Shown here: positions 398-21,080 of the stretch, piece after piece | Numbering within the stretch: the first letter of the stretch is position 1 | Layout: each line of letters opens with the position of its first letter | Virus record (IMG/VR): IMGVR_UViG_3300006928_000128 | Location: 1 to 21,080 of that record | DNA: 21,080 nt | From: a virus | Direction: 5' to 3' (one strand) | The notes under the pieces: model-generated | Seen by the model: only the letters and a program-made list of their open reading frames with translations | The model's database searches: none | What the model was told of the DNA's origin: nothing | Translations under genes and position numbers: made by a program

Positions 398-760
398 ATG
401 ACAACTAGTCCTAGACCTGCACGTTCTGCCTTAAGGGCAATAGATCGTTTAAAGAAAGCTGCAAATTTAGAAGCTACAAAGAAGGAAGTTGAATTAACTG
501 ATGGAACGGTATTTGAGATGTGGGTATCACCTTTAACAATGGCAGAAAGAGAAAGAGCACAAAAAGGAGCTAAATCTGATGATGCAAATGAGTTTGCTTT
601 AAGGCTTTTGATGACAAAAGCATTAGATGAAAATGGTAGTAGGTTATTTAATATTGGTGAAATTGATGTTTTAAAGAATGAAGTAAGGGATGCTGATCTT
701 CAAATTTTGATGCTTGCGGTTATTAATACAGAGGATGATGACATCGACCCAAAATCCTAA
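398..760 (+). CDS. Tail assembly chaperone, unshifted product (gpG-like)
   Basis: This 120-residue protein lies between the tail-tube-like gene and the tape measure gene, the place of lambda gpG. In that family the protein coats the tape measure protein during tail assembly and is absent from the mature virion. The N-terminus is basic (about residues 1-30). A conserved-looking core (ELTDGTVFEMWVSPLTMAE, about 32-50) and a helical C-terminal half ending in an acidic tail (EDDDIDPKS) follow. The slippery heptamer CCCAAAA lies at its end, two codons before the stop, and an open -1 frame continues to 942. That arrangement is the strongest evidence for the assignment. The ATG at 398 has no clear ribosome binding site, but no better start precedes the core. 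Confidence 0.8.
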   Translation: MTTSPRPARSALRAIDRLKKAANLEATKKEVELTDGTVFEMWVSPLTMAERERAQKGAKSDDANEFALRLLMTKALDENGSRLFNIGEIDVLKNEVRDADLQILMLAVINTEDDDIDPKS

Positions 761-3900: not shown

Positions 3901-4504
3901 GAAAAACGCTATTAAAGCAGGAGAAGAAACAGCAAAAGTAAAAGTAAAATGGGAAGACATTAAAGAAACTATTGCTAGTGGTTTAACAAGTGCAGTTGAA
4001 GGATTAATAGCTGGAACGAAGTCATTAGGTGAGTCATTAGCTGGAATTGCTAAATCAATTGCAAGTATGTACTTGAAAGCAGCATTTATGAATATGTTGC
4101 CTATGGCAGAAGGAGGTTATGTCTCTAATGGAATTAAACCGTTCAGTTCAGGTGGGATGGTTACAAGACCAACCGTAGGACTTGTAGGAGAAGCTGGAGA
4201 AGATGAATACATAATCCCTGCCTCAAAGATGGCTGCAAGTATGCAACGCTACTCAGCAGGTGCTAGAGGTGAGGCTGTAATTCCTGCCACTGGTTCGTCT
4301 TATGCAGGTGGAGGTGCAGGAGGATCTACAACAGTTTCTTACTCTGGGCCAATATTGAACTTCAACTCTGAAGAATTTGTTCCTAAATCAGCAGTAGGAC
4401 AAATTATTGCAACTGCTACATCTCAAGGTGCTAGAGCTGGAGAAAATAGAACTTTATCTACACTAAGGAATAGTAGAAGTGCCAGATCGAGGTTAGGAAT
4501 GTAA
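971..4504 (+). CDS. Tail tape measure protein
   Basis: This 1177-residue protein sets tail length in siphoviruses and is ejected with the DNA. The N-terminal third (about residues 15-260) is rich in Lys, Glu, Ala and Arg and looks coiled-coil. A more hydrophobic stretch lies near 365-420, and a glycine-rich hydrophobic segment near 645-680 (GAGFPVLFGGGPGAILGG) could enter a membrane. Near 1045-1090 comes the region commonly seen at the end of tape measure proteins: EGGYVSNG, SSGGMVTRPT, GEAGEDEYIIP. The C-terminus is basic. The start is GTG at 971, with AGGG ten bases upstream. The stop overlaps the next ATG (TAATG). At the usual 0.15 nm per residue the tail would be about 175 nm long, an inference only. 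Confidence 0.95.
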   Translation: MAINEEVITVNLNVNITKSERQLKKTEARLKKIQDLAAGISKGTSLIDARSVKGGKAALEGFKKTLEDLAKSNKNYATTTAGLDRQLGKLRATFRGISTDAKEFKNALVASEKVQRQLYKAQQETRAIRGRALTGGEAGGIVSELIAQKGEVYQSISALRAYRSELTRLKDAVRMNSSEFNELEKEIKRVDGILNKPKRKRPQDIKRNIGGITGREKALQEALRIQNETESSALGYRDAVLGVREAQKALNAELRQAARIQSQISQSTVSWGKAFSDLKKLGGGLAGGLANVGGKAGGVLKGIGTSRVGQIGSARIFSDLIKKVPVVDKAFGRLLQKIPLFGKLLNENTSVNARWAAQILEGITGITLAWNGLNQIISAAQAFTAFERQAAIAINSVARMFKNLYNVAGAMMMGLISPGQVGQNLWDQLNDRPEVLKARRGRSRIESLENQLPKYKEEFKNTELYEYDRIELKARQILEIEAGITDEQRSRILVMKRMQAEMGGPVWSQYGSPAGPGSKGAGWGSNAQDRLGDVQLRIGEAITANSLENRNAVSRLLIEERKVNVELARRKEILRVLHQGVENVNLSVQAQRDMFGISNRAALESQKQQSPLYANDPNANAARRRAGKRGAIQRKRQRAQILQEGLMLGAGFPVLFGGGPGAILGGAGGALWQGTRKKPERGFGGQILASAAGQVLDRVVAQTIASVTKLGQAFTSLGGSFDMMTERSLFSSDATRLQAKNLLEQGKRSEAAALMTKELTKALGSTAVEDLKRLGEKSKELSQKWGVLKTQMELLLVGPLTDMIEMLNKIVSRETAKNKLGSVMRESQRLGVGNSIDVATKDVIAQEVSKLGGLGKVDRFFPGEQEFVGGIGGIDVNALDAESILKIVKALEKYNESIKDFSTASKVKGLLPSKDENEEVFQSFEKIIQAQEKLNEKTKLEKEIANAVNKEARIEAKLKLAILDIEGKITDEQRERLKNAIKAGEETAKVKVKWEDIKETIASGLTSAVEGLIAGTKSLGESLAGIAKSIASMYLKAAFMNMLPMAEGGYVSNGIKPFSSGGMVTRPTVGLVGEAGEDEYIIPASKMAASMQRYSAGARGEAVIPATGSSYAGGGAGGSTTVSYSGPILNFNSEEFVPKSAVGQIIATATSQGARAGENRTLSTLRNSRSARSRLGM

Positions 4505-4962: not shown

Positions 4963-5366
4963 AGCCTTACGAGTTAATAGGACTTGAATATCGTTTAGGG
5001 TCTGATCCTGTAAAGCATGGAACTGGTGATTGCCTGTCTTTGGTTCGTACAGTATTAGCAAATTATGGTTTTACTGTTCCTAAAGGAGATCGTGATTGGT
5101 ATCGAAGGTTAAAGAGAAAAGACTATAGTATCTTTTTTGAAGAATTAAATCGGTGGGGAGTTGAATCACCCCCTAAACTAGGAACAATTGGTTTATGTCA
5201 TAGCGAAAATGATTCCTATGGTATGGCTGCTTATTACGAGGAAGGATGGCTGAGTTACCGAAAGACATTAGAAAGCCAGGTGGTGCTTTGGTGTCCGCTA
5301 GAGGCCCTTTCACTCGCAGGGTGCTACTTCCAACGGAAGCCGATCTCTGTAATGCCCTTGGATTAA
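4959..5366 (+). CDS. NlpC/P60-like tail protein (gpK-position), probably inactive
   Basis: The order L-K-J and the motif GTGDCLSLVRTVL, with a cysteine at the head of a helix, fit the NlpC/P60 papain-like peptidases found in siphovirus tail tips, which cut peptidoglycan crosslinks. Where active members have a conserved His (typically HVGIY), this protein has SYGMAAYYEEG, and the second His position also lacks a clear match (WLSYRK). The only nearby His is in LCHSEND. It may therefore be a structural relic of the enzyme. I prefer TTG at 4959, which overlaps the upstream TGA (TTGA) and gives the N-terminus MKPYELIGLEYRLG. An in-frame GTG at 4920 would add 13 residues that are an out-of-frame reading of the upstream gene. 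The last 121 bases overlap the J-like gene. Confidence 0.62.
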   Translation: MKPYELIGLEYRLGSDPVKHGTGDCLSLVRTVLANYGFTVPKGDRDWYRRLKRKDYSIFFEELNRWGVESPPKLGTIGLCHSENDSYGMAAYYEEGWLSYRKTLESQVVLWCPLEALSLAGCYFQRKPISVMPLD

Positions 5367-8300
5367 CAGAAGAAGAATATTTTCAATTTTTAGAAGGTGT
5401 AGCGGCAAAAGTAAAAGAGAGGCCAGAAGCTTATGACTTAGTTCCTAATTTAGTAAATGGCCCTTTAGTTGTTGCGGCTGGATTACCTGGAGCAGGAACA
5501 TTAACTGCTTTTGGTCAAATAGTTGTTGGTATTGCTTTAAGTGTCGTTTCATATCTTTTAACACCTAAACCCCCAAGCATGAAGCAAGGGACAAACGAAA
5601 GAACTGCTGATATAGCAGGTCTTAAGCGTTTTGCTCCTCAATTTAGTTTTAACAGTATTCAAGATTTAGCAAATTTAGGTGATTTAATTCCTCTTGTTTT
5701 TGCCAATAGAGATCAAAATCCTAATGGTGGAATCAGAGTTAATTCACAGCTTATTTGGTCGCAAATGGTCAGTTTGGGCAGCTATCAACAATTAAAAATA
5801 CTTGCTTTATTTTCTTTAGGTGAAATAGCTCGAAAACCAGAGGTAAAAGGATATGCAATAGGAGATTTATTAATAGACAACTACCATGCAGATAAAATTT
5901 ATAAGGACACGAATGATGATATTCCTTTTCAATTAAATGCAATACCAAACGTAGACGAAGATAATATTCCTTTTTCTGCTGATTCAGAATTAGGTCATAT
6001 TTTTAGAGTTGACGATAAAAGGTATTTTTCAGGAACAAGAAACCCAACGACACAAGCAACATTTGGATTAAGTAATCCAATGCCTAACGCAACGGTTTAT
6101 AAATTACCTTATGAATTGGTCGGATCTCCTAGTAATCCAAATAACCCTGACTACAGGCCAGCAGGAAGAATAGTTTATAAAAAGAGACGGAAACTTCTTG
6201 GGTCGTGGCCTATGTGTGCAGGTTTTGTTAATTCTGGTACTGCTGACCAGCAAGCAGGTAGAGCTGATGCAACCGTTGGTGATTATTTGACATATCAGAT
6301 AGTAGGTAGTGGAACATTTGGCTTATATGAGGGCATTGCATATCAGCAAAACACAGATAATTTAGACCTAACGATGGATCCTCATGGGGTTGAGGACGTT
6401 AACTCTGCAATAAAAACAGTTAGAGAAGCTACTGACTCATATCTTGTAATAGGTGAGCAATATATGGCTGGATCAACTTTGCTAACTTGTGAGGAAATAT
6501 TAGAAGATAATCTACCTGTTAATGGAAGACCGTGGGATGGGACAAAAGTTAGATCAGCTAGTTTTAAAGTAATAGAAACAGGAAGATATGAATCTCTCGA
6601 TAATTCTATTGATGGATTGGGCTATCATTGTCAAAATCCTTATTGGTTAGATGGAAATACAGAGAACCCTGGCAGGAAGAAAGGAATAACATTTACTAGA
6701 CGTAAGGGGAAATTCTTTACAGTAAAACCCCCTAGTGGAGATGATCACTTCTTTTATGAACAAGAATATGATGATAGTCCTGATGCAGCAGATCTTTACA
6801 ATCCAAACAGTAGATATGCACTTCAAAAGGTTAATTTAGGAACTATTTCTAACAATAGAAGATGCAATATTACGGAAATAGGAATTAAGTCAAAGGTCTT
6901 TAAAGAGATGCAATTTGCAAATGTAAATAGTAAACCAACAGAAGCAAAAATAAATGAAATTTATGATTATAGGTCTTCTCTTACATTGGGTAATGTCCAA
7001 AAATTTATTACCAGATATAGTTTTTTTAAGTTACAAGTTAGAAAGGTAGGACAAGATACTTGGAATTGGTTAAAGCCTGAAGTTAATACCAACGCGCATA
7101 CTGGTTTATTTTGCGTAAGAGGTAATACTCCAGAATTTCAATATAACTATATAAGAATTGATCAGCCTACTTTTGATCAATATGAGTATAGATTTTTCCC
7201 TTGGCCTGGTGCTGCTGTTGTCAAAGAAGTCAAGACTGATTCAGCAAGGTCAAGATATAATCCTATTAATGCTATTCTTTTAAATTCTAATACTGCAAGA
7301 ACAGCAGGATCTACAGATAAGTTTACCTGTAGTGTTAATGGAGAAGATTTTGCTGTTCAATTTGCAGGAAATAAAAACCATGTTCTAACTGAACAAAACT
7401 TAAGCAACAGCGAATGGAATTTAGGTACACCAGATGCATTAAAAGTAGGTGATGCTACTTATCAAGTTCTTGAGTTTAACGGAAACAACCACGATGGAAG
7501 TAGAAAAGATTATTCAATAAGCAATCTACCAATATTAAGACCAAGCGAACCAGTATTTACTAATAAGCTTTTTTATCCTCCTAATTACGGTGGATATATA
7601 AATGGTTCGGGTGCTCATGGAACAATTATTGTTGGTTGGCAAAATCACCCTAGTAATGGTTATACCCAGTATTCCTTATACATTAATAAAGCTGACGTAA
7701 CTGAAAATATTCAAGGACTTGACGGCCCTGCATGGGCTAATCATCAAGTAAAAGCACCAGGCGATTTTAGCGATGTTGAGTTTCACTACACCACACTAGA
7801 TGGCAGAGGAGGAAAATTTATATTAGGGACTCATCAATTAAATACAAGTCAAGGACATCCTATTTATGGAGTTACAAAAATTGAGCAAACACCATTAACA
7901 GCAACTCCTTCTTTTAGCGGTGAAGTTGATGTAAAGAAACAATATTCGCATGAGGATGGTTCAGGATTAAAGGCTAATGTTGTTGTTTATTCTCTTGGAT
8001 CTGAATGGTATGCAGAATGGGAATTGTCTGATGTAGGAGATGAGTATTTAAATAATCAGGAGGTTTATCTAGATAAAAACGATATTTTTACAAGTGACAT
8101 TATTAATGCTGGATATGACGATATAACATTCACTTTGAACGTTGGTCTTTCTAATACTGATGTTTACAGTGATGAAATTGGGCCTAGTAAATTAAATCTT
8201 TATGATGCGGCTGCTGATTTTTGGCAGTATGAAGGTGATAGATCAAGTCATTTAGAAGGGCCAGAGCATCAGATAACATACTGTAATGAAATTGTGGAAA

Positions 8301-9541
8301 CGGAAGGATCAGAAAGGGCTACTTATGAAAATTTAGCCTACGCAGGATTAAGCATTAAAAGTTCAAAAGAATGGACAAACTTTAGTCAATTTTCTGCTTA
8401 CTTTAAACAAGGAATAAAAGTTGAAAAATTAGTTTTTGATGGAATGGGGCCACATCCCTTAAAAGATGCAACAAGTTTATTTCCTGAAATTGCTTATGCG
8501 TTATTAACAGATGAAAAGATTGGAGCTGGTGCTGTTATTAATGCTGATTCTGTCAACAAAACAAATATGACTATTGCGGCAAAATTCTGTAAAGCAAATA
8601 AATTCTTTTGGGACGGTGTTATTTCAAACAAAGTTAATTTAAGAGAATTTATATTTGAGCAAGGAACACATTGTTTATTAGATTTTACGATTATAGGAGG
8701 ACAATTTAGTTTGTATCCTTCTGTTCCTTTTGATAATAATTCCTATGAAATAAAAAATGATAAGGATGTTGTTATTAAAGCAATGTTTACCGATGGCAAT
8801 ATTAAGGATTTACAAGTAGCTTTCCTTAGCCCTGAAGACAGACAAGCTTTTAAAGCAAATGTTATATATAGAAATGAAAAAGAGAACGGATTTCCAGAAA
8901 ACAAATCTATAGTTATACGTTTGGCTGACGAAGAAGATGCTAATGGGAAGGTTCTAGTTTCACATGTAAACGATCCATTAGAGACATTCGATTTAAGTGG
9001 TTTTTGTACAAGCAGAAAACATGCACTCGATTTTGGGAGATATATTTTGGCAAATAGAAAATTTGTCGATCATACAATGACATTTAAGACTGCACCTCAT
9101 TTTGTTAATGGTGTTCAGCCTGGTGATTACATAAGAGTGTTTTCAACAACTCAACATGTTCAACGATTTAATAACGGTGCAATTCTTGACAATGGAACGG
9201 TTGTTTGTAAAGACATAAGTGAATTAGCAAGCGGTACTCAACCTAAGAATTTTTATTGGTGGAATACTAAAGAATCGGTTGTCCAAGAAGATAGTTATAA
9301 TTTCTCTAATTGGACTTCTGATAGTAAGTTACCTGCAACGTACAGAAATTCTTTGTTCACAATTAAGGAACTTGAATCTTCTGATCAATGTTACAAAGTT
9401 GAAAGTATGACGTTTGGAGAAGATGGATTGATTGAACTTTCTGGGTCGTATGCAAAATTGGATGGAAACAAATTAGCTATGCTACAGAAATGGGATGATA
9501 CTGATATAGATAATCCCTTGTTTGATTATGATTTGGAGTAA
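5246..9541 (+). CDS. Tail tip / host specificity protein (gpJ-like)
   Basis: This 1431-residue protein is by size and place the central tip protein that closes the tube and contacts the host. The ATG at 5246 follows GAGGAAGG directly and lies 121 bases inside the preceding gene. An in-frame GTG at 5291 is an alternative. Residues about 72-107 are hydrophobic (GQIVVGIALSVVSYLLTP), a feature seen in lambda gpI, so an I-like part may be fused to J. Residues about 120-200 match the J-type start in style (SFNSIQDLANLGDLIPLVFA, LKILALFSLGEI). Near 1248-1300 the segment SGFCTSRKHALDFGRYIL with VQPGDYIRVF matches the hub domain of J-like proteins. The middle (about 560-1000) is beta-rich and probably variable. 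The stop is three bases before the next gene. Confidence 0.85.
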   Translation: MAELPKDIRKPGGALVSARGPFTRRVLLPTEADLCNALGLTEEEYFQFLEGVAAKVKERPEAYDLVPNLVNGPLVVAAGLPGAGTLTAFGQIVVGIALSVVSYLLTPKPPSMKQGTNERTADIAGLKRFAPQFSFNSIQDLANLGDLIPLVFANRDQNPNGGIRVNSQLIWSQMVSLGSYQQLKILALFSLGEIARKPEVKGYAIGDLLIDNYHADKIYKDTNDDIPFQLNAIPNVDEDNIPFSADSELGHIFRVDDKRYFSGTRNPTTQATFGLSNPMPNATVYKLPYELVGSPSNPNNPDYRPAGRIVYKKRRKLLGSWPMCAGFVNSGTADQQAGRADATVGDYLTYQIVGSGTFGLYEGIAYQQNTDNLDLTMDPHGVEDVNSAIKTVREATDSYLVIGEQYMAGSTLLTCEEILEDNLPVNGRPWDGTKVRSASFKVIETGRYESLDNSIDGLGYHCQNPYWLDGNTENPGRKKGITFTRRKGKFFTVKPPSGDDHFFYEQEYDDSPDAADLYNPNSRYALQKVNLGTISNNRRCNITEIGIKSKVFKEMQFANVNSKPTEAKINEIYDYRSSLTLGNVQKFITRYSFFKLQVRKVGQDTWNWLKPEVNTNAHTGLFCVRGNTPEFQYNYIRIDQPTFDQYEYRFFPWPGAAVVKEVKTDSARSRYNPINAILLNSNTARTAGSTDKFTCSVNGEDFAVQFAGNKNHVLTEQNLSNSEWNLGTPDALKVGDATYQVLEFNGNNHDGSRKDYSISNLPILRPSEPVFTNKLFYPPNYGGYINGSGAHGTIIVGWQNHPSNGYTQYSLYINKADVTENIQGLDGPAWANHQVKAPGDFSDVEFHYTTLDGRGGKFILGTHQLNTSQGHPIYGVTKIEQTPLTATPSFSGEVDVKKQYSHEDGSGLKANVVVYSLGSEWYAEWELSDVGDEYLNNQEVYLDKNDIFTSDIINAGYDDITFTLNVGLSNTDVYSDEIGPSKLNLYDAAADFWQYEGDRSSHLEGPEHQITYCNEIVETEGSERATYENLAYAGLSIKSSKEWTNFSQFSAYFKQGIKVEKLVFDGMGPHPLKDATSLFPEIAYALLTDEKIGAGAVINADSVNKTNMTIAAKFCKANKFFWDGVISNKVNLREFIFEQGTHCLLDFTIIGGQFSLYPSVPFDNNSYEIKNDKDVVIKAMFTDGNIKDLQVAFLSPEDRQAFKANVIYRNEKENGFPENKSIVIRLADEEDANGKVLVSHVNDPLETFDLSGFCTSRKHALDFGRYILANRKFVDHTMTFKTAPHFVNGVQPGDYIRVFSTTQHVQRFNNGAILDNGTVVCKDISELASGTQPKNFYWWNTKESVVQEDSYNFSNWTSDSKLPATYRNSLFTIKELESSDQCYKVESMTFGEDGLIELSGSYAKLDGNKLAMLQKWDDTDIDNPLFDYDLE

Positions 9542-10492: not shown

Positions 10493-11358
10493 TGGGCGTT
10501 TATTTTGGTCAAAGTGGTGAGATTGTTTTAAAAAGAGATACCCTTCAATCTCCACTGCAAACAACTTTAGATCCTTCGGACGTAAACACCGCCACGAGGA
10601 GATTTAATGTTGACCATAGTTCTGGTTCGTTAATAACTGGAGATGAGGTAGAAATATCAACTGCTGATGGTTCGACGTTAGAACTTGTCAACGGGCATAA
10701 TTATCCAGATGGAAAATGGTTTGTAAATATTGATCCTGTTGGTGGTATTCGTTTGTTTGATTCGTTTTCAAAGGCAATTGAAGGATTACAATCAAACGCT
10801 TTAACTCTTGTAACTCCTAGTGCAATAAAAGAAGTAATTTTACAAACAAAGAATGAATTATTCCGTCATGTTGCAAATATTAAAGACTTTGAAATGACAA
10901 CTAGTAGAGATCAAGTTGATTTAACACCTTTAGGCGATGAGTTCAAAAGTCAATACGAAGCTGGATTAATTAGTGGTCAAGGTTCTATGAATTGTATTTG
11001 GGAGCATAGTTATGAAACAGGAGATAGAGCTAATCAATATGGTTCGGATGCAGAATTTCCGTTTTATCTAGCTCAATTAATTTTAAGAACTCAACAGGGT
11101 GCAGATTTTAGTGGGATCTTTTATATCTATAGAGATAGCAGTAATTCAAAAAATAATGTTTATTATGAAACTGAATGCTGTGTAACTAATGTTGCTGTAT
11201 CCGTTGCTGCTTCTGATGTTATAGAGACGAGAATTGATTTTGTAACTAATGGAATTATTGCTTTAAAGACAGGAGATACACCTGGATACATACTTCAAGA
11301 AGATGAAGATAAGATCCTTCAAGAGAATGAAAGTCCCATATTGCTCGAACAGGTTTAA
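10492..11358 (+). CDS. Second tail-tube-like structural protein with C-terminal 8-residue repeats
   Basis: This 288-residue protein is coupled to the previous gene through a TAATG overlap. Its N-terminal part (about 1-115) includes an HSSGSLITGDEVEIST segment typical of beta-rich virion domains. The central part (about 125-170) has FEMTTSRDQVDLTPLGDEF and GLISGQGSMNCIW, which resembles the conserved centre of tail-tube proteins. The last 22 residues are a short repeat, ILQEDEDK-ILQENESP-ILLEQV (11290-11355), recalling the short LLLED-type repeats of some phage structural proteins. Together with the previous gene it forms a pair that may build an extra ring or collar at the tip. Neither role is proven. 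Confidence 0.55.
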   Translation: MGVYFGQSGEIVLKRDTLQSPLQTTLDPSDVNTATRRFNVDHSSGSLITGDEVEISTADGSTLELVNGHNYPDGKWFVNIDPVGGIRLFDSFSKAIEGLQSNALTLVTPSAIKEVILQTKNELFRHVANIKDFEMTTSRDQVDLTPLGDEFKSQYEAGLISGQGSMNCIWEHSYETGDRANQYGSDAEFPFYLAQLILRTQQGADFSGIFYIYRDSSNSKNNVYYETECCVTNVAVSVAASDVIETRIDFVTNGIIALKTGDTPGYILQEDEDKILQENESPILLEQV

Positions 11359-11389: not shown

Positions 11390-14300
11390 ATGGCTGATCT
11401 CAAAATAACTGGATTAGATGCTTTAGCAGAAGCCTCGATCCAAGCGACCGATGCTCTCGCCATAGCGGATCTGAGCGCAACAGAAACAAAGAAGGTAACT
11501 GTAAAAGATTTAATTGCGGCTGGTGTAGCCCTTATTGATTCTGGAGATATACCTGCTGCCAAAGTTGCGGCACCTTTTGCTGCTAATTCAGTTGCAACTG
11601 CAACTATTCAAAATGACGCTATTAATGCAGATAAACTTGCTACTGATTCTGTTACTGCAGATGCTGTAGCTGCAAATGCTATTGGAGCGAGTGAATTAGC
11701 AGATAACGCCGTTGACTCAGGGGCTTTAGTTGCCAATTCAGTTATAACAACAAAAATATTAGATTTAAACGTAACAAGCGATAAAATTGCTAGTAACGCA
11801 ATAACAACGGTAAAGATTCTTGATGCAAATGTAACTTATGCAAAATTAAATCTTAGTGATGGTGATATTTCTGGTGCAAAGATTACAGGAAATTCTATAA
11901 CAAATGCACAGATAGGAGCCGATGCTGTTGGTACGTCCGAGTTAGCAGATAACGCTGTTGATACAGCAGCAATACTTAATGCCGCAGTAACAGGAACAAA
12001 GATAGCTGCAGACACTATTGAGTCAGGTAACATTGCGGCAAACGCTGTCGGTGCTAGTGAACTGGCTGATGCTTCTGTTGATACAGCAGCTATTGTTGCG
12101 AACGCTGTAACAACTGCCAAGATTGCTGATGGCGAAGTAACAACAGCAAAATTAGCAGGAAGTATTACTGGTGATAAATTATCTAATTCAACTGTTACTT
12201 ATGCAAAATTAAGCATAGCTGATGGTGATATAGCGGGAGCAAAGATTACTGGGAACTCTATAACTGCAGCACAAATAGCAGCGAACGCTGTGACTGCATC
12301 TGAGTTAGCTGATGACGCTGTAGATACTGCGGCTGTAGTAGACGGAGCTATTACAACTACACAAATAGCCGCAAATACAATTACGGCTGGAAACCTAGCT
12401 GCAAATTCCGTAGGAGCAAGTGAACTGGCTGACAATGCTGTAGATACTGCGGCTGTTGTAAATGGAGCCATAACTACTGACAAGATTGCTGACGGAGCAA
12501 TTACTACAGCGAAATTAGATGGAACAATTTCTGCTAGTTCTATTGCTGATAATTCAGTTACAAGTGCAAAGATAGCGGCTAATGCTGTTGGAGCTTCAGA
12601 ATTAGCAGACAACGCTGTGGATACTGCTGCTATTGCTGCTTCTGCTGTCATTGATTCAAAGATAGCAAGTGGAATTAGTGGAACAAAAATAACTGATGGA
12701 ACAGTTACAGCAGCCAAGTTAAATACTTCTAATCTTGATCGTTCGTTAAATGTAGCTAGTGGCAATCTTGGAATTAATAACACAATTACTGCTGCTACTC
12801 GTTCAGGAATTACATATAACGCACAGGGCTTAATAACTGCCTCAGCCGCATTGGTAGCAGGAGATTTACCTGTCGCTACTACCTCTGCTGTCGGTGGCGT
12901 TTCGGTTAGTACTGGTCTGACTGTTAGTGGGGCAGGTGCATTATCTCTTACTAATAGTGTTACTGGAGCAACAGTTAGCGGGATAACTTTTAACAATCAG
13001 GGCATGATTACGGCTGCTACTGGATTGACAGCAGCGATGCTTCCAGTATCAACGACAAGTGCTAAAGGTGCAGTACAAATTACGTCTGGAGGAGGATTAA
13101 CTGTTGATGGTTCGGGTAATCTGGCTACTTCAACGAGTGGAATTAGTGCTGGAACATATCAATCAATTACTGTTAACAATAAAGGTATCGCCACAGCAGG
13201 TGCGGCACTTACAGAAGCGTTAATTCCTTCGCTTGCTGCTAGTAAAATAACAAGTGGAAGTTTTAGTGCTGCGAGAATTGCAAATGATTCTATTGATGGT
13301 TCAAAGCTAAGTAATGCTTCTACAGCAGTCTTTCAATCTATTGCCCAGAGTGGTTATCCAACAGCTCAATTTAATGGTCAAATATTATTTGATACGGTTT
13401 CAGAAGATGCGTTTATTTGGGACGGAAACGCTTGGCAAGCAATAACCACATTAACAAAAGGAAGTCTTGTTTTTGGTGGAACTTTTAATGCAAATACGAG
13501 CCAAATGGTGGCGACTACCTCTGCAGGAATTGCGGCTGGATTGGCAGTTGGTTCTAATTTACCTACTCCAAGTGCTACCACAGATGGCGTTTACGTCGTT
13601 GTATCGAGTTCTGGAACTCCAAGTGCTCCAGCTCCAGTTGTTGCTTTAGCTCCTCCTGATTATGTTTTAGGTATTACAAACTCAGGAGGGAGCAGTTGGA
13701 ACGAAGTTGATCTTTCACAGACAGTAGCAGGACAAATTGCAAGCAATATTACCTTTACACCTTATGGACAAATCAGTGCAACTAATGTTCAAGATGCACT
13801 TCAAGAATTAGAAACAGAAAAGATGGGTCTTGCTGGTGGTACGTGTACTGGTCAGCTATTGATTTCTAACACTGGATCAATTGTTTTTGAAGGAAGTACT
13901 GTTGATGCACATGAACTAACTCTCGCAGTAACCGATCCTCAATCTTCAGACAAAACTATTACTTTTCCTGACATAACTGGAACATTAATTACTACTGCTG
14001 ATACCAATACTGTTACATCAACAATGGTTGATGGAAGTTTAGTTAATACAAACTTGGCGGCTAATGCTGCTATTGCTTTTAGTAAATTAGCTGCTTTAAA
14101 TTCTGCTCAAATCATTGTTGGTAATGGATCAAACGTTCCAACAGCAGTTGGCGTAACAGGAGACATAAGCATAAATAATGCAGGTCTTACGGCTATTGCA
14201 ACAGGCGTAATTGTTAACTCTGATATATCTAACTCGGCTGCAATTACAGGGTCGAAAGTAACTACTGGAACGACAAGTGCCGTTGGTGTTCTTCAGTTAA

Positions 14301-16354
14301 CAGACTCAACTTCAAGTACAAGTGCAACAACAGCAGCTACTCCTAATGCTGTTAAGACTGCTTATGACTTAGCTAATACAGCAAACACAACTGCCAACGC
14401 TGCTCTACCGAAAGCTGGTGGAACAATGACTGGCAACTTAATTGTTGATAATGCAAAAGAAGTTCGTTTTACAGAAGCAGACTCAAATGGTGCAAATTAT
14501 CTAGCATTAAAAGCTCCTGATTCTGTAACGGCTGATATTACTTGGACTCTTCCAAATGGTGATGGTAGTGCTAATCAATTCTTAAAAACAGATGGTTCAG
14601 GAAATCTAAGTTGGGGAACAGATAGTACAACTGACAGTACGAAGCTTCCTTTGGCTGGTGGCACTATGAGTGGCGCGTTGAATATGGGGAGTCAAAATAT
14701 TACAAACGCTGGAACAGTCACAGGAACCTTTGTAGGAAATATCACAGGAAACGTAACTGGTAATGCTTCTGGATCTGCTGGCTCTTGTACTGGAAATGCT
14801 GCAACAGCAACAGCCTTAGCTTCAAGCGTCAATATTGGTGGAGTTGCTTTTGATGGGACATCAAGCATCACTCTTCCTGGTGTTAATGCTTCTGGAACGC
14901 AAGACACAAGTGGAACAGCCGCTTTAGCAACTTCATTTACAGTTACAGCTAATGACTCAACTGATGAAACTGTTTATCCATTGTTTGCAGATGGAGCGAC
15001 AGGATCACAAGGAGCAGAAACAGATACAGGACTTACTTATAATCCTTCAACTGGATTATTAACTTCAACAGGATTTAGCGGAGTTGGAACTTTATTAACA
15101 GCTTTAAATGCCTCGAATTTAAGTTCTGGAACAGTAGCCACAGCAAGACTTGGCTCAGGAAGTTCTGTTACTACTAAATTCCTAAGAGGAGATAATACTT
15201 GGCAAACTGTTTCCTCTACTCCAGAAGGAACAGCAATATTATCTACAGGTGAATCAGGTGCAACTAAATTCCTAAGAGAAGACGGTGACGGGACATGCTC
15301 TTGGCAAACCGTAGTTACATCTGCCTCTGGATCAAATACACAAGTTCAATTTAATAATTCTGGAGCATTTGCGGGATCAAGCAGTCTTACTTTCAATTCT
15401 GGAACAGGTGCTTTAACAGCTACATCGTTCAGTGGATCAGGTGCGTCTTTAACTGCATTAAACGGATCAAATATTGCTAGTGGAACAATCGCTGCGGCTA
15501 GGATTGCAACTCTAAATCAGAGCACGACAGGATCGGCGGCAACATTAACAACAGCAAGAGCAATTAATGGAGTCGATTTTGATGGCTCAGCAGCAATAAC
15601 AGTAACGGCTGCTGCTGGAACGCTTACAGGAACAGAATTGAAAAGCACAGTTGTCACTTCAAGTTTGACTTCTGTAGGAACCCTTACAAGTTTGGCAGTT
15701 ACAAACAATGCAACTATTGGGGGTAACGCAGTAATAACAGGCGATCTCACTGTTCAAGGAACTACTACTTCGATTGACACTACCAATCTCGATGTGGAGG
15801 ATCGCAATATAACACTTGGAAAAGTATCATCTCCTAGTGATGCTACCGCCGACGGAGGGGGCATCACGCTTAAAGGTGCCTCAGACAAGTCATTTAACTG
15901 GGTTAATTCGACTGACGCTTGGACTTCTTCAGAACATATTAAAGTTGCTAGTGGTAAGACATTTATTGGAGACGGTTCAACTTTAACTGCATTAAACGCA
16001 ACAAATCTAGCGTCTGGAACGGTAGCAACTGCAAGGTTAGGCTCTGGAACAGGAAGCAGTTCTAATTTCTTAAGAGGGGATGGAAGTTGGCAGACAATCT
16101 CTCTAGATAAAATCGAAGAAGGTAATACTTCAGTTGAGGCAGTTGATACAGGATCAGATGGTCATGTAAAGATAACTACTGAAGGAACTGAAAGAGTTCG
16201 TGTTGGAACGGCAGGTGAAATAGGACTTTCGGGTGCCAACTATGGTACGACTGGGCAAGTTTTGACATCTGCTGGTTCGGGATCAGCTCCTCAATGGTCA
16301 GCACCTGCTGGAGGTGTTAGTATTGCAGCATTGCTAAAATTAACAAACTTATAA
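11390..16354 (+). CDS. Large tail fibre protein with decapeptide-repeat shaft
   Basis: This 1654-residue protein is a long repetitive tail fibre. Residues 1-63 form an attachment-like head with a helical VTVKDLIAAGVALI segment. Residues 64-444 are about 38 tandem units of 9-12 residues (consensus near AxNAVTTAKI). Residues about 465-614 hold three units of about 60 residues around SGITYNxQGLITA and LPVxTTSA. Later come GGTMTG/GGTMSG motifs, three copies of a SLTALNxSNLASGTVATARLG-type module and FLRGDxxWQT motifs. A DLTVQGTTTSIDTTNLDVED and WVNSTDAWTSSEHI segment (about 1445-1525) is of a kind often seen in cyanophage fibres. The C-terminus is GSAPQWSAPAGG. No S74-type chaperone end and no enzyme motif were seen. 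A good AGGAG site precedes the ATG. Confidence 0.88.
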   Translation: MADLKITGLDALAEASIQATDALAIADLSATETKKVTVKDLIAAGVALIDSGDIPAAKVAAPFAANSVATATIQNDAINADKLATDSVTADAVAANAIGASELADNAVDSGALVANSVITTKILDLNVTSDKIASNAITTVKILDANVTYAKLNLSDGDISGAKITGNSITNAQIGADAVGTSELADNAVDTAAILNAAVTGTKIAADTIESGNIAANAVGASELADASVDTAAIVANAVTTAKIADGEVTTAKLAGSITGDKLSNSTVTYAKLSIADGDIAGAKITGNSITAAQIAANAVTASELADDAVDTAAVVDGAITTTQIAANTITAGNLAANSVGASELADNAVDTAAVVNGAITTDKIADGAITTAKLDGTISASSIADNSVTSAKIAANAVGASELADNAVDTAAIAASAVIDSKIASGISGTKITDGTVTAAKLNTSNLDRSLNVASGNLGINNTITAATRSGITYNAQGLITASAALVAGDLPVATTSAVGGVSVSTGLTVSGAGALSLTNSVTGATVSGITFNNQGMITAATGLTAAMLPVSTTSAKGAVQITSGGGLTVDGSGNLATSTSGISAGTYQSITVNNKGIATAGAALTEALIPSLAASKITSGSFSAARIANDSIDGSKLSNASTAVFQSIAQSGYPTAQFNGQILFDTVSEDAFIWDGNAWQAITTLTKGSLVFGGTFNANTSQMVATTSAGIAAGLAVGSNLPTPSATTDGVYVVVSSSGTPSAPAPVVALAPPDYVLGITNSGGSSWNEVDLSQTVAGQIASNITFTPYGQISATNVQDALQELETEKMGLAGGTCTGQLLISNTGSIVFEGSTVDAHELTLAVTDPQSSDKTITFPDITGTLITTADTNTVTSTMVDGSLVNTNLAANAAIAFSKLAALNSAQIIVGNGSNVPTAVGVTGDISINNAGLTAIATGVIVNSDISNSAAITGSKVTTGTTSAVGVLQLTDSTSSTSATTAATPNAVKTAYDLANTANTTANAALPKAGGTMTGNLIVDNAKEVRFTEADSNGANYLALKAPDSVTADITWTLPNGDGSANQFLKTDGSGNLSWGTDSTTDSTKLPLAGGTMSGALNMGSQNITNAGTVTGTFVGNITGNVTGNASGSAGSCTGNAATATALASSVNIGGVAFDGTSSITLPGVNASGTQDTSGTAALATSFTVTANDSTDETVYPLFADGATGSQGAETDTGLTYNPSTGLLTSTGFSGVGTLLTALNASNLSSGTVATARLGSGSSVTTKFLRGDNTWQTVSSTPEGTAILSTGESGATKFLREDGDGTCSWQTVVTSASGSNTQVQFNNSGAFAGSSSLTFNSGTGALTATSFSGSGASLTALNGSNIASGTIAAARIATLNQSTTGSAATLTTARAINGVDFDGSAAITVTAAAGTLTGTELKSTVVTSSLTSVGTLTSLAVTNNATIGGNAVITGDLTVQGTTTSIDTTNLDVEDRNITLGKVSSPSDATADGGGITLKGASDKSFNWVNSTDAWTSSEHIKVASGKTFIGDGSTLTALNATNLASGTVATARLGSGTGSSSNFLRGDGSWQTISLDKIEEGNTSVEAVDTGSDGHVKITTEGTERVRVGTAGEIGLSGANYGTTGQVLTSAGSGSAPQWSAPAGGVSIAALLKLTNL
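11579..12721 (+). repeat. Array of about 38 decapeptide repeats in the fibre gene
   Basis: Residues 64-444 parse without gaps into 38 units: 33 of ten residues, three of nine, two of twelve. Each carries a small residue then V or I at positions 4-5 and ends in I or L (examples AANAVGASEL, ADNAVDTAAI, ADGAITTAKL). The pair GASEL-ADNAVDTAA recurs six times, near bases 11681, 11927, 12047, 12290, 12410 and 12587. Copies use different synonymous codons. Confidence 0.85.
12782..13231 (+). repeat. Three longer repeats of about 60 residues in the fibre gene
   Basis: Residues about 465-614 contain three copies of a unit with SGITYNAQGLITA, SGITFNNQGMITA and QSITVNNKGIATA, spaced 58 and 61 residues apart. 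In the first two copies this is followed by LPVxTTSAxG and GLTVxGxGxL. The third copy is more diverged. Confidence 0.7.
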
Positions 16355-16355
16355 G

Positions 16356-17906
16356 ATGGCTGACGAATTAAAGCAATTAAGCACTCATTCAGCAAAAACT
16401 TTAAGTGAGATGCAAACTGGCATTACTTTAGCCAGTACTTCAGGATCCCAGAAAGCAGTCGTTAAAGATATATATATTACTAATTCAAAGAATCGTCCTG
16501 TTCAAATAAGGTTAGGATCTACAACAGGCCAACAAATTGCTACTGGTAGTACTACATGCAATCTTAATGGTAATGAAATCTTAGATAATTCTCAATCGAT
16601 AGTAGCTTGCACAGATGCCGAATTATTAATAACTAATTTTGTTCAACGTGGTTGGGGAGATGGTAATGATAATACTCCTGCTGAAGAAAGAACCTACAAT
16701 GGTACTTATCAAATAATTCAACATACTATTAATGACACTCCAATTTTTAAACCACAGGTGTGGGATGGATCTTTTGGTACCGTTGCCAACAATGGTGCTT
16801 CTTATGTAAGTAATTATAAAAATCTGCCACAATCTAATGGCAGTCACGAGGTCAGAAACCCTGCTACTACCTTCTTTGATGCATCTGGCAATATGTTTGC
16901 CCATCAAACTGCCGACCAATTAGATTACAGACTAAATGGATCGGCAGATAAAAATGTTGTATATAAGCTCTCTAACAATTCTAGTAATTCCCCTTCGACA
17001 AATACGACACGGATAGGTAGTGCAAACGACCATGATGCAGTGGCTTGGGATGGTTCCCGTTATTTTTACACTTTCAGGCATGATGCAAACCATCTAAGGA
17101 AATATGATACTCAAACAATGGGAACTAGTGATACCTATACTCAAATACCTGTATATGACTGCGTAACAAGTGATACAACTGCTTTTCAATTCTATTGCAA
17201 CCATGGAGCTAGTGGTATTTACTACCTTGATGGTCTTCTTGCTTGGACTGGTAGAGCAGGTACAACGAATGTTGGCTCAAGATTCTCTATAACTGATATA
17301 GCATCTGGTCGTACTAAACAATTATATGATCCTGAACGCGCCGAATATCAAGGTGTATCTGGTTACAACGCGGATAGAATTAGGCGTAGCTTTGGGATAG
17401 CAAAAGATAGTGCAGGAGATTATTGGGCCGTAATATGTAATTACAAAACGGAGAACAATACTCAGTCAAAAAACTATTGGGCTTGTACAAATATGGGTAG
17501 TGATCCGAAAACAACTTTTATACCTCATGCTCAGAGTGCTAAGCAAGAAATATTAATTGATATGTATGAGACTGGTACCACTAATCATCAAATGTGTAGA
17601 CGCTTAGCCTCTTTTGATGGGAGATACTTTGGTAATCCCCGTGGCTCATGTGTTTGGAGTCCAAGTGTAACAGGGGGACTGTATTTCTATAGTGGCAGAT
17701 ATAACCAAAGTACTACTAATGCAAGCGATTCTTTCTACTATTTTAATTTGGATGCTATCCCCGATCTTAATTATAGTGCGATGGTAACTCGCTATAATAG
17801 TTCTACTGCTTACACCGGAGCAATGGAATTAGTTGCTGATGCAACAGTAGGATCTGCTGCGTGGGGTACAGTCTCTGCCACAACAAAAGGAATTTTAACT
17901 ACGTAA
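16356..17906 (+). CDS. Putative receptor-binding / propeller-like adhesin
   Basis: This 516-residue protein starts one base after the fibre stop. The N-terminal part (about 1-90) contains KAVVKDIYITNSKNRPVQIRL, a beta-rich module that may attach it to the virion. From about residue 140 on, segments recur with an aromatic-rich strand after a D-G-x-Y or D-S-x-G turn: AVAWDGSRYFYTF, GIYYLDGLLAWTG, GIAKDSAGDYWAVICNY, LASFDGRYFG, GGLYFYSGRYN. This resembles a Kelch- or NHL-type beta-propeller, although the repeats are too diverged to count blades. It has many Asn, Thr, Ser and Tyr, no signal peptide and no membrane segment. Its place after the long fibre suggests the tip that recognises the host surface. 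An enzymatic role such as glycan cleavage cannot be excluded. Confidence 0.6.
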   Translation: MADELKQLSTHSAKTLSEMQTGITLASTSGSQKAVVKDIYITNSKNRPVQIRLGSTTGQQIATGSTTCNLNGNEILDNSQSIVACTDAELLITNFVQRGWGDGNDNTPAEERTYNGTYQIIQHTINDTPIFKPQVWDGSFGTVANNGASYVSNYKNLPQSNGSHEVRNPATTFFDASGNMFAHQTADQLDYRLNGSADKNVVYKLSNNSSNSPSTNTTRIGSANDHDAVAWDGSRYFYTFRHDANHLRKYDTQTMGTSDTYTQIPVYDCVTSDTTAFQFYCNHGASGIYYLDGLLAWTGRAGTTNVGSRFSITDIASGRTKQLYDPERAEYQGVSGYNADRIRRSFGIAKDSAGDYWAVICNYKTENNTQSKNYWACTNMGSDPKTTFIPHAQSAKQEILIDMYETGTTNHQMCRRLASFDGRYFGNPRGSCVWSPSVTGGLYFYSGRYNQSTTNASDSFYYFNLDAIPDLNYSAMVTRYNSSTAYTGAMELVADATVGSAAWGTVSATTKGILTT

Positions 17907-18284: not shown

Positions 18285-18479
18285 ATGTCGGACTCTTTAC
18301 AACGTCTTGAAGAACTTGGAAAAGAAATAGTTCAGGAGAGACAGATTCAAGCAGATCTTCAAAACAGATTTAAAGAAAGCACTGAAAGAGCTGTAAAAAT
18401 AAATCAGGAATTAGCTGCTTTAGCAGAAACCGCCGCTAATCCAGATAATGCTAGTGATAGCGAGGCTTGCCCTGCATGA
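18285..18479 (+). CDS. Small coiled-coil protein
   Basis: This 64-residue protein is almost wholly predicted alpha-helical and heptad-like from about residue 4 to 48 (LQRLEELGKEIVQERQ, FKESTERAVKINQELAAL), followed by an acidic flexible end (NPDNASDSEACPA). It has no membrane segment. It starts a run of tightly spaced genes, and its stop overlaps the next ATG (ATGA). It could be a scaffold or an adaptor for the membrane proteins that follow. Similar small coiled-coil proteins occur in many phages, so no function is assigned. Confidence 0.65.
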   Translation: MSDSLQRLEELGKEIVQERQIQADLQNRFKESTERAVKINQELAALAETAANPDNASDSEACPA

Positions 18480-18682
18480 TCAAAACCCTTACTTACATAA
18501 ATACAGCCTTACTTGGTTTGGCTGTATCTGTTGGTACGTTGGCTTACTTTCAACGTGGCAAGATTACAGAATCCATAATGAGTGAAGTACAAAAGCAATT
18601 ACCTTCTCTTGTTCAAGGAGCCATGCCAAAGATACCAAGCGTTCCATCATCAACTGGCTCTGTTAATCCGTTTGCTAAATGA
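18476..18682 (+). CDS. Small single-span membrane protein
   Basis: This 68-residue protein starts at ATG 18476, which overlaps the upstream stop (ATGA). An in-frame TTG at 18467 is less likely. The N-terminal segment YINTALLGLAVSVGTLAYF (about 6-24) is one membrane span. After it comes an amphipathic stretch (KITESIMSEVQKQLPSLV) and a Pro/Ser-rich tail ending VNPFAK. From memory it resembles small membrane proteins next to virion protein genes in marine T4-like cyanophages. A holin is a possible alternative, but a single span with a long outer tail and no endolysin nearby gives no support. Translation is probably coupled to the next gene, as its TGA overlaps the next ATG. Confidence 0.62.
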   Translation: MIKTLTYINTALLGLAVSVGTLAYFQRGKITESIMSEVQKQLPSLVQGAMPKIPSVPSSTGSVNPFAK

Positions 18683-19236
18683 TTCAATTCAAGTCATTTA
18701 ATGGCCTAACTTCTTTAGTTTTAGGCGGTGGTTTGATTGCTACGAACTTTATGAGCCTTAACCTTTTGGCTCGTAAAGATTCTGGTATCCCTGATATAGC
18801 CAAACTTTCTAATACTCCCTATAGCAGCCTTCAAATCAGGAGCGAAACGAAAGCTGATGGTGCAGAAGAATGGAGTTTTGCCAGCCGTCAACACGATCCT
18901 AAGACGATGTTGGCCTATGAAAGCTCTGAATCTCCTACATTTAATGGCGGAATAAAAACTAAGCATATTCATAAAGAATCTGTTGCTCAATTTGCAATTT
19001 TTCCTAAGGGAGAAAATGGAACACTTACAGCAGATCAGATTGCATGTATAGAAAAACAGGCACAGGGTCGCTCGAACGGAATGATGATTGCTGACGCTAC
19101 TTCAGTTCAAGTTACGCCAGCCATTATGGGCGTACCTATCGTTGGCCCCGTTCTCGCAGGAATCTTCTTTGGTCAGGCTAGAAAGCAAGCAGGTGAGGCC
19201 GCAAGTAATCTTGCAGGTCAATGGAATAATTGCTAA
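18679..19236 (+). CDS. Putative membrane-associated virion protein
   Basis: This 185-residue protein overlaps the upstream gene by ATGA. The N-terminus has a hydrophobic stretch (LTSLVLGGGLIATNFMSLNLLA, about 10-31), either a signal anchor or an uncleaved leader. The middle is soluble, with a beta-rich SQFAIFPKGENG-like region and an ACIEKQAQGRSNGMMIADA segment. A second hydrophobic stretch near 146-165 (VTPAIMGVPIVGPVLAGIFFG) is followed by a short end with a C-terminal Cys. The region PAIMGVPIVGPVLAG recalls structural proteins of marine cyanomyoviruses, though I have not compared them. The gene ends directly against the next ATG. Its likely place is the host or virion-associated envelope. 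Confidence 0.6.
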   Translation: MIQFKSFNGLTSLVLGGGLIATNFMSLNLLARKDSGIPDIAKLSNTPYSSLQIRSETKADGAEEWSFASRQHDPKTMLAYESSESPTFNGGIKTKHIHKESVAQFAIFPKGENGTLTADQIACIEKQAQGRSNGMMIADATSVQVTPAIMGVPIVGPVLAGIFFGQARKQAGEAASNLAGQWNNC

Positions 19237-20061
19237 ATGGAAATAGAAGATATTTCTGTTAGGGAGATACCTGAAGCTTCAATAGATACAACAATAATTC
19301 CTACACCTAAAGCTGTATTACCTAACAACATAGGTTTCCCAGTCATCCAAATGCCTGGCTGTGTAAGGGCTAGGACGTTGAAAAATAAGAATTTAGTAAC
19401 TTCAGATCCTGCTGGAAATTTCTATGTATGTGATGGAAACGTACCAACACTTGAAAGCATGGCGGTTGATTGGGACGGACTATCTGCTGTTGGGCCTGTA
19501 AAAGCAGACGAGCCAAAATTAGTTCCACCTGTTCCCAAAATCAATTCAAAAGGGAATAAGAGAAAGGAAGTGGAAGAAGAGAATAGCGAAAATGACGAGA
19601 AGGGAGATACCAATGTAGGGCAACAAGATTTTAATATTTCAAATATTGATGGACAGTTTATTGCAGATGTTTTGCCTTGCCCACCGTTAGACACACTTGC
19701 TAAAACTCCCGTTGGTTCATTAGGTAAAGGAGGACTTGCAAGAATTAAAGGATGGAAAAGAGATGAACTTACAGGCAAATGTGAAACGGTATGGGAAGGT
19801 TTAAGTCCATTAGATATTGCAGGTAATTACGCTCCACAACCTACTGTTTTAATAAATACATCTGCTATTGCTATTACGTCAGTCGTTGGTGTAACTGTTA
19901 TTGGTCAGCCGATAGCTAAGTTTGTCCAGAAGCAACTTAAAGGACAAGTCAAAAGTTTTTCTAAGAAGATTACTAAGAAGCTGTTAGCTATTCGGGGGAA
20001 GAAACCTCCTGTAAAGTCCCTCGCTGAAAGGAGAAAGGAGCAGAAAGATTCTCGGAAGTAA
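19237..20061 (+). CDS. Putative virion structural protein with C-terminal membrane segment
   Basis: This 274-residue protein begins one base after the previous stop. It has an IQMPGCVRARTLKNKNLVTSDPAGNFYVCDGNVP region (about 28-62), split by a charged low-complexity linker (about 102-133, rich in E, K, N). Then come VLPCPPLDTLA, VGSLGKGGLARIKGW and LTGKCETVW. A hydrophobic segment near 205-225 (TSAIAITSVVGVTVIG) is followed by a very basic end (KKITKKLLAIRGKK, KSLAERRKEQKDSRK). The arrangement MPGC-DPxG-C, PCPP, a C-terminal span and a basic tail closely recalls a conserved virion protein of marine T4-like cyanophages. Its last 74 bases overlap the converging minus-strand gene. Confidence 0.65.
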   Translation: MEIEDISVREIPEASIDTTIIPTPKAVLPNNIGFPVIQMPGCVRARTLKNKNLVTSDPAGNFYVCDGNVPTLESMAVDWDGLSAVGPVKADEPKLVPPVPKINSKGNKRKEVEEENSENDEKGDTNVGQQDFNISNIDGQFIADVLPCPPLDTLAKTPVGSLGKGGLARIKGWKRDELTGKCETVWEGLSPLDIAGNYAPQPTVLINTSAIAITSVVGVTVIGQPIAKFVQKQLKGQVKSFSKKITKKLLAIRGKKPPVKSLAERRKEQKDSRK

Positions 20062-20839
20062 CTTCAATACTGTGAGTGTGATCTGTCAATGTATTAGGAG
20101 GATTCACAAGCCTTACATCTTCACAGACAACATAGCTAGGGCTATCTTTTGCATAGACAACCCCTAGCTTCAATTGTTCTGCACATACTTTTAAACGTCC
20201 TAAAGCATAATCTAACTTCTTAGCTTTGTATGCTTGTTCTAAATATTGAATACGTGTATTCATTGCAGCTACGCAGTTATTAGTCATGCGTCTATCTAGT
20301 GGAACGGCAATCGTAGCTGTAATGCCATAGTTAAAACTTAAATTATTTTCAGCTTGTCCTGTCCTGATTGGTTTTGTATATAAAACTCCACCAGGATTTA
20401 CTAAATTACCGTCATCATCTGTACTATCGTCATATACATTTTCTTGGTAATAAGGTTCAAACGGATCTTTCCAAGTATTCACTTTAGAGATGAAAGGATT
20501 AATTGTAAGAGTCGTTCCACTGCAACGGATTCCATCACCTACTTCTTGAAACATAAAGCTCCCCGATTGAACCTGAATACCTTGATTGATTACAGAACCT
20601 TGGGACGTTGCAGATGGAGAGGCTATAGTCGTTGAGTTTGCAAATACTGGTTGACTAAATGTTATTGAGTAAAGACAGATACCGACTCCACGATAGAGTC
20701 TGTTGTAGTGGTTCGGTTTATTGTTGTTACATTTGAAAGGCCAGGTTGGGCTAGTGATTCTGTGAATGAAAAAGCGTTGCCAGCAGTTTTGATTCCCCAA
20801 TCGGGCTTGTTTGCTGGTGTTACATCTACTGATGTCCAT
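19988..20839 (-). CDS. Secreted or envelope-directed virion-type protein, start uncertain
   Basis: The frame ends at 19988 and the only ATG in reach is at 20839, giving 283 residues. However, about the first 55 residues are the out-of-frame reading of the next minus-strand gene, so the true start is probably later. Just after that overlap the sequence reads like a signal peptide: NRLYRG, a hydrophobic GICLYSITF, then PVFA before NS. No ATG, GTG or TTG sits in front of it; a TTG at 20800 is the nearest. The body has GVLYTKPIRTGQAENNLSFNYGITATIAVPLD and a helix rich in Lys and Leu (TRIQYLEQAYKAKKLDYALG) with several cysteines. From memory it resembles the partner of the adjacent protein in marine T4-like cyanophages. 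Confidence 0.6.
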   Translation of the reverse strand: MDISRCNTSKQARLGNQNCWQRFFIHRITSPTWPFKCNNNKPNHYNRLYRGVGICLYSITFSQPVFANSTTIASPSATSQGSVINQGIQVQSGSFMFQEVGDGIRCSGTTLTINPFISKVNTWKDPFEPYYQENVYDDSTDDDGNLVNPGGVLYTKPIRTGQAENNLSFNYGITATIAVPLDRRMTNNCVAAMNTRIQYLEQAYKAKKLDYALGRLKVCAEQLKLGVVYAKDSPSYVVCEDVRLVNPPNTLTDHTHSIEVTSENLSAPFSFQRGTLQEVSSPE

Positions 20840-21080
20840 GTAAAGGTGATGTTATCAACGGTTTGAGGTGCATTTAATACAGCGTTAGGTGAAATATTAT
20901 TTGTATTTAGTGGTTCGATATTATGACCAGAAACAACATATTCATACCCTGATCGATAATCAACTGATGTTATAGATTCGGTTACTACAGTTTTAGTTTC
21001 TTGTCTGCTGTTAAGAGTACCAGTTGAGAATGTGGGGACGACGGGAACAGCAGAAACGCTAGTCCCTGCAAAGGATATGA
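20662..21080 (-). CDS. Putative cyanophage virion protein, 3' part
   Basis: On the minus strand the frame is open from the window edge at 21080 to the TAA at 20664-20662, giving 138 visible residues, so the start lies beyond the window. It includes ETKTVVTESITSVDYRSGYE, VVSGHNIEP, WTSVDVTPANKPDWGIKTAG and SFTESLAQPGLSNVTTINRT. The combination VTESI - SGxNI - PGLSNVTTINRTTTT recalls a conserved structural protein of marine T4-like cyanophages. There are no cysteines and no membrane segment in the part seen. Its stop lies close to the signal-peptide region of the gene at 19988-20839, so the two genes probably form one transcript running leftward. Confidence 0.68.
   Translation of the reverse strand, partial: ISFAGTSVSAVPVVPTFSTGTLNSRQETKTVVTESITSVDYRSGYEYVVSGHNIEPLNTNNISPNAVLNAPQTVDNITFTWTSVDVTPANKPDWGIKTAGNAFSFTESLAQPGLSNVTTINRTTTTDSIVESVSVFTQ

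Follow-up and report, generated by a model that had tools for sequence, protein, structure and literature searches.

An exported, apparently dual-coded gene cassette common to several kinds of cyanophage and rarely found with an endolysin: a candidate lysis module

A cassette of envelope proteins at the end of a siphovirus contig

The window analysed here is an IMG/VR virus contig of 21,080 bases (IMGVR_UViG_3300006928_000128) from a marine siphovirus. Behind a tail module it carries the end of a conserved cyanophage cassette for envelope proteins, P2>P3>P4> facing <P5<P6<P7<P8, with P7 and P8 lying beyond the window end. Three of the genes are on the plus strand. P2 (18476..18682, 68 residues; phrog_568, E 3e-5) has an N-terminal membrane span, and P3 (18679..19236, 185 residues; phrog_605, E 1e-11) combines an N-terminal span with a hydrophobic, glycine-rich segment near its C-terminus. 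P4 (19237..20061, 274 residues; phrog_570, E 4e-31) is made up of a proline-rich domain with cysteines, a C-terminal membrane span and a basic tail. On the minus strand, P5 (19988..20839) has its stop codon at 19988 and an ATG at 20839, inside P6, and matches phrog_848 (E 2e-63) and also phrog_1755. P6 (20662..21078; phrog_650, E 8e-35; Pfam family DUF6322, E 1e-28), the 5' end of which is cut by the end of the contig, is a secreted, serine/threonine-rich beta protein. According to hydropathy analysis, P2, P3 and P4 have membrane spans, and P5 and full-length homologues of P6 have signal peptides. P4, P5 and P6 are members of a core that is described below.

P4 and P5 overlap tail to tail on opposite strands by 74 nucleotides (19988-20061), and this overlap is present in 66 of 66 loci of the siphovirus group to which the window belongs (the window group) and in 48 of 71 T4-like loci. 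The P5 search retrieved 71 IMG/VR loci, mostly with 78-100% identity. Their genes are usually arranged as P2>P3>P4> <P5<P6, and wherever the contig reaches far enough, tail and fibre genes of the window group adjoin the cassette. In the longer contigs of relatives, the cassette runs past the position of the window end and continues with two further minus-strand genes, P7 (phrog_564), which is a paralogue of P6, and P8 (DUF6450). The full order P2>P3>P4> <P5<P6<P7<P8 was found in 38 window-group loci. P8 has a charged N-terminus followed by one or two spans; hardly any member lacks a span, and 74 of the 78 T7-like ones have two. No match to a holin family was obtained for it.

Phage records matched by tblastn (134 for P3, 407 for P4, 444 for P5 and 412 for P6) are all from cyanophages or marine viruses. 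P5 also has matches in genome contigs named as bacteria and archaea, which include unrelated organisms as well as Prochlorococcus single cells; these likely represent phage contamination or infected cells. The preceding gene P1 (18285..18479, plus strand; 64 residues, charged) is not counted as a cassette member because its relatives, seven HMM (hidden Markov model) matches, are confined to the window group. A plasmid stability function for P2 was also rejected, as it rests on the label of phrog_568 only: no Pfam domain for stability, partition or toxin-antitoxin function was found in this protein.

A predicted start of P5 within P6

Most P5 members have no start codon near their signal-like segment. 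The P5 frame, which is -1 relative to P6, can be followed without a stop codon to a start codon that lies within P6, so that the C-terminal part of P6 and the leader of P5 would be encoded by the same stretch (20662..20839, minus strand, in the window). When only distinct sequences are counted, the P5 frame is open in 52 of 52 cases in the window group, in 71 of 71 T4-like, 70 of 70 MED4-184-like and 64 of 70 T7-like cases. The chance of an open frame was estimated by shuffling synonymous codons of P6 and is, on average per sequence, 0.4%, 18%, 4% and 21%, respectively; the sequences within a group are related, and the four separate groups agree. The other shifted frame of P6 is never open as far.

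The position of the P5 start codon is fixed, and the codon is always ATG, in all 71 distinct T4-like and all 52 distinct window-group sequences. It is fixed in 60 of the 70 MED4-184-like sequences, the remaining 10 having a TTG further upstream, and in 54 of the 70 T7-like sequences (ATG, GTG or TTG). In the predicted product, the first 40-60 residues or so form a basic leader; next come a hydrophobic segment, encoded across the P6 stop codon, and the mature domain. This domain has four invariant cysteines and is preceded by a cleavage site with an invariant alanine at about 20639. A fusion of P6 and P5 by ribosomal frameshift is considered less likely, given the fixed start codon in each group and a stop codon about 4-5 codons upstream of it. 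We report as new, and as a prediction from coding sequence, that P5 begins inside P6 in another frame which has been kept open in all four kinds of phage. In MED4-184 itself (L078 4344-5406), the relative frame of P5 and P6 differs from that in all 70 distinct relatives; the difference is either genuine or due to an error in sequencing.

Occurrence in four kinds of cyanophage

Iterated HMM searches map a core of P4, P8, P6/P7 and P5 to four kinds of cyanophage: T4-like Kyanoviridae, T7-like phages (P-SSP7), MED4-184-like phages and the window group. Judged by homology, this core is common to all four, which is reported here for the first time. The order is P8>P2>P3>P4> <P5<P6<P7 in the T4-like phages, a single operon P4-P8-P6-P5 in the T7-like phages, and P4> <P5<P6<P7 in S-TIM5, a myovirus outside the Kyanoviridae. 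MED4-184 has been termed a dwarf myovirus (PMC3861242). Despite this label, its genome codes, as siphoviruses do, for a tape measure protein and for lambda-type minor tail proteins resembling gpL and gpM.

The T4-like version has been described before. Sullivan et al. (2010; PMC3037559) reported that T4-GC 218, 219, 234, 235 and 237, all hypothetical genes, form a mobile cluster which often includes a plasmid stability protein (T4-GC 414) and which is present in 15 of 16 T4-like cyanophages, S-PM2 being the exception. Functional reasons were proposed for the clustering, and no specific function was put forward. Homologues of the cluster are P2-P6 in the window and P7-P8 just upstream in relatives; they were mapped by HMM onto P-SSM4 and Syn9, and the gene order in S-SM1 is the same.

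A sequence-only reading of the window had compared five proteins (P2-P6) to conserved virion proteins of T4-like cyanophages, had noticed their spans and signal-like segments and the lambda-type character of the tail genes, and had suggested a transferable, undescribed module for crossing the cyanobacterial envelope. The likeness to T4-like cyanophage proteins is borne out for all five by PHROG, tblastn and HMM matches. The membrane and signal segments as well as the type of tail were confirmed, and synteny with T4-like genomes was found. A transferable module common to T4-like cyanophages does adjoin a lambda-type tail. It is not undescribed, however, as the cluster has been in the literature since 2010. 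The designation as virion proteins was not supported either: the virion of S-SM1 has been analysed by mass spectrometry (PMC3037559), and in the S-SM1 record, where only the annotation was consulted, the seven cassette genes are labelled hypothetical or plasmid stability and none of them virion protein. This speaks against the cassette products being virion proteins, but is suggestive only.

The cassette rarely coexists with an endolysin and uses the same genome slots

Of 15 records whose C39 and/or lysozyme endolysin is a stand-alone protein, only one (DSL-LC03) has a clear P5; in the endolysin-bearing S-CAM7, P5 is represented by a 28-bit trace. Stand-alone C39 or PF00959 proteins are missing from all 22 cassette records. 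The Fisher value of 2e-9 for cassette versus endolysin ignores relatedness and record choice and is a guide only. It is a new observation that the cassette largely excludes stand-alone C39/lysozyme endolysins.

Hydrolase-type domains in cassette records occur in other settings. C39/lysozyme-type matches lie within open reading frames (ORFs) of about 900-1200 residues in two records (G012 and G014) and in S-ShM2, and these look like tail or baseplate proteins. The S-ShM2 match was not accepted as an exception to the exclusion, since the C39-like domain is part of a 1205-residue ORF adjoining T4-GC 15, a virion protein. VanY and glucosaminidase domains were not found in cassette records, except in one 940-residue ORF, and NlpC/P60 is restricted to the siphovirus and MED4-184-like records, where it is probably a tail-tip protein. 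No endolysin family was detected in 47 of the proteins of MED4-184, nor in the scanned unassigned proteins of P-SSP7 and of the window relative G001. One scanned protein from G001 or P-SSP7, probably from G001 (L081 13739-14431), matches the family of Mom, a DNA-modification protein (PF25680, E 3e-39).

Cassette and endolysin share one set of slots in siphoviruses, T7-like and T4-like phages, which is likewise newly observed here. The lysozyme of S-CBS1 and S-CBS3 is located just after the tail/fibre genes, which is the place of the cassette in the window. In P-SSP7, P4-P8-P6-P5 fill the interval from tail fibre to terminase, which is also the lysis slot of T7; S-CBP1 and S-CBP2 carry a lysozyme/endolysin there. 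Among T4-like phages, S-PM2 lacks all cassette genes and codes downstream of nrdB for a Peptidase_C39_2 protein, a phage lysozyme and a lytic-transglycosylase-type protein, lysozyme/C39 genes are found in the region downstream of nrdB in ACG-2014f, S-CAM7 and S-CREM1, and the cassette directly follows nrdB in Sf-FS3. The 72-residue "putative lysin" of S-PM2 (L342 16286-16696) has been annotated too short, as the open frame spans a full-length phage lysozyme domain.

The adjoining tail module

PHROG matches to a tape measure, a gpJ-like protein and major tail proteins assign the tail module of the window to the lambda type; all of its genes are on the plus strand. It begins with a gene resembling tail assembly chaperones (398..760; phrog_344, E 1.9e-5), followed by the tail tape measure protein (971..4504, 1177 residues), which is assigned by size, position and a match to phrog_10093 (E 1.1e-4). 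A gene at the gpK position (4974..5366) possibly codes for an NlpC/P60-type tail-tip hydrolase; the match to PF00877 reaches E 0.21 only, and NLPC_P60 is above the Pfam cut-off in the relative G004. The gpJ-like central tail protein (5246..9541, 1431 residues; phrog_27845, E 7.6e-28) is related to tail proteins of S-CBS1, S-CBS3 and S-LBS1, those of S-CBS1 and S-CBS3 being among its few phage relatives. Two genes resembling those for major tail proteins (10013-10492 and 10492-11358; phrog_10528, E 6e-7 and 1e-5) are located 3' of gpJ, an order that is unusual for a lambda-type tail module.

The region up to the cassette (11390..17906) is variable among relatives and consists of two open frames for fibre-like proteins. 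The first (11390-16354) codes for 1654 residues with degenerate repeats (ELADNAVDTAAI and similar), is represented by a version of 2397 residues in G001 and is probably a long fibre. The second (16356-17906) has no family match.

Proposed function of the cassette

We propose that the cassette is an envelope-disrupting module for lysis or release which takes the place of the usual endolysin cassette, an interpretation that we consider about evenly poised between being right and being wrong. It is favoured because the proteins are exported or membrane-bound, late-promoter motifs are present in part of the T4-like loci, an endolysin is not recognised, endolysins are excluded and the slots are those of endolysins. 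In DSL-LC03, which has both cassette and endolysin, the close spacing of the two (about 2-5 kb apart) also speaks for it. Roughly one in three T4-like loci has the T4-like late-promoter motif ATAAATA about 29 nucleotides before P8, and 20% have it near P7, with 1.6% expected. In addition, the P6/P5 overlap recalls the overlapping spanin genes Rz/Rz1, an analogy that would fit a role in lysis.

We infer the following course of events. P8 would control timing in the manner of a holin, P2, P3 and P4 would be inner-membrane parts, and P5, P6 and P7 would be exported at a late stage, weakening both cell wall and outer membrane. P6 and P7 could form pores by long beta-hairpins, and P5 could be a disulphide-stabilised oligomer. 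The P6 model (predicted local distance difference test, pLDDT, 73) contains two strands of 23-24 residues (pLDDT ~80-86), and pore-forming stems and phage tail tips are frequent among its PDB matches. The best of these matches has E 0.06 and none is significant, and we take them as hints at pore formation, not as evidence. A T7-like P6 (L099 38376-38735) shows a weak match to PraA/PraB, below the cut-off (E 1.5e-4). The more specific proposal that the exported, partly dual-coded set of P4, P8, P6/P7 and P5 opens the cyanobacterial envelope independently of an endolysin and that T4-like, T7-like and siphovirus-like phages exchange it as a whole is tentative, and we would sooner expect it to fail in some part than to hold throughout.

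Several results weigh against a lysis function. No match to a hydrolase was found for P2-P8 in Pfam, PHROG, NCBIfam or PDB, and no match of cassette members to a lysozyme, amidase, peptidase, holin or spanin family. For P5, the structure model is poor (pLDDT 60, predicted template modelling score 0.31; beta strands followed by a helix of 43 residues) and there is no significant PDB match; since family, PDB-sequence and fold matches are all lacking, P5 was rejected as an enzyme. P5 does not have a lipobox: in the sequences inspected, the alanine of the cleavage site is followed by N, E or D and never by Cys. DSL-LC03 carries both systems, an endolysin and clear P5 and P6. Syn5 has no match to P5, P6 or P8, its lysis genes not having been sought. 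The endolysin and cassette records were picked rather than sampled at random, and related phages are not independent. Finally, virion-borne hydrolases could be the lysis agents in some T4-like phages.

The cassette might instead serve host entry, its products being minor virion proteins by which DNA crosses the cyanobacterial envelope, as the sequence-only reading had implied. The cassette adjoins tail genes in the window group and, in T7-like phages, the genes for tail fibres, P4 combines a large domain at its N-terminus with a C-terminal span and has no signal peptide, and T4-type late-promoter motifs would suit virion proteins as well. Yet the S-SM1 genes are not annotated as structural, the T4-like cluster is often located among replication genes, and the cleavable Sec-type signal peptides of P5-P7 are unusual for virion proteins. 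An anticorrelation with endolysins is not expected from an entry function; together with the genome slots, it points to exit, so that we regard entry as quite unlikely. Late remodelling of the envelope or superinfection exclusion, which would protect the infected cell or alter its surface, agrees with the many secreted and inner-membrane proteins without an enzyme signature and with the restriction of the cassette to cyanophages or contigs likely derived from them. It leaves unexplained, however, why the cassette is absent from endolysin-bearing cyanophages and why endolysin slots are used, and we consider it unlikely.

That no hydrolase fold is found in the cassette would be accounted for if it were an accessory trans-envelope machinery for secretion or release, itself non-lytic, with an unrecognised peptidoglycan hydrolase encoded elsewhere in the genome. 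The predicted beta domain of P5 with its single long helix is compatible with this, and many proteins in these genomes belong to no known family. Few candidates are left, however, in the small genomes scanned (MED4-184 and parts of P-SSP7 and G001), and this alternative appears improbable to much the same degree as an entry function. It is hardly credible that the cassette is merely a mobile element carried by its "plasmid stability" gene without a role in the phage cycle. Its place in the genome does vary (Sullivan et al.), but T7-like members have no P2, this protein is a membrane peptide with one span that lacks a Pfam plasmid-stability domain, and near-universal retention implies a function.

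Cyanophages kill a sizeable share of the photosynthetic cells in the ocean, and no lysis enzyme can be recognised in the cassette-bearing phages examined. If the cassette is a lysis system, this would explain the missing enzyme and may reveal an unrecognised route by which many ocean phages burst their hosts. It would then be a gene set that several kinds of marine cyanophage have in common, and a testable, non-canonical exit across an envelope of the Gram-negative type. Should the function be another one, the pattern is still sharp and testable: a dual-coded module for the envelope occurs in four kinds of phage and almost never together with an endolysin.

Comparison with known systems

The cluster of Sullivan et al. 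corresponds to the cassette genes as follows: P8 is T4-GC 218, P2 is 414, P3 is 219, P4 is 234, P5 is 235, P6 is 236 and P7 is 237. The order is largely equal and the convergent layout is the same. The window cassette differs in belonging to a lambda-tailed siphovirus, in being adjacent to the tail genes and in having P8 inside the P5 operon.

MED4-184 (JF974286) resembles the window in its order P2>P4> <P5<P6<P7<P8 and in its lambda-type gpL/gpM-like tail proteins, so that the combination of a lambda-type tail with the cassette already exists in a deposited isolate. It lacks P3, its P5 and P6 are only 32-46% identical to those of the window, and the genes are annotated as hypothetical. P-SSP7 (PSSP7_042-045) has homologues of P4, P8, P6 and P5 in a single operon between tail fibre and terminase. 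In contrast to the window, all are on a single strand, P2, P3 and P7 are missing, and P4 and P5 are shorter.

Like Rz and Rz1 of lambda, P6 and P5 are two exported envelope proteins with overlapping reading frames. They differ in that the signal of P6 is cleavable rather than a membrane anchor and that P5 has no lipobox, and no sequence relation was found. The C39/lysozyme modules of S-PM2 and of the S-CBP and S-CBS phages occupy equal genome slots to the cassette, but consist of unrelated proteins with recognised hydrolase domains and almost never occur together with it.

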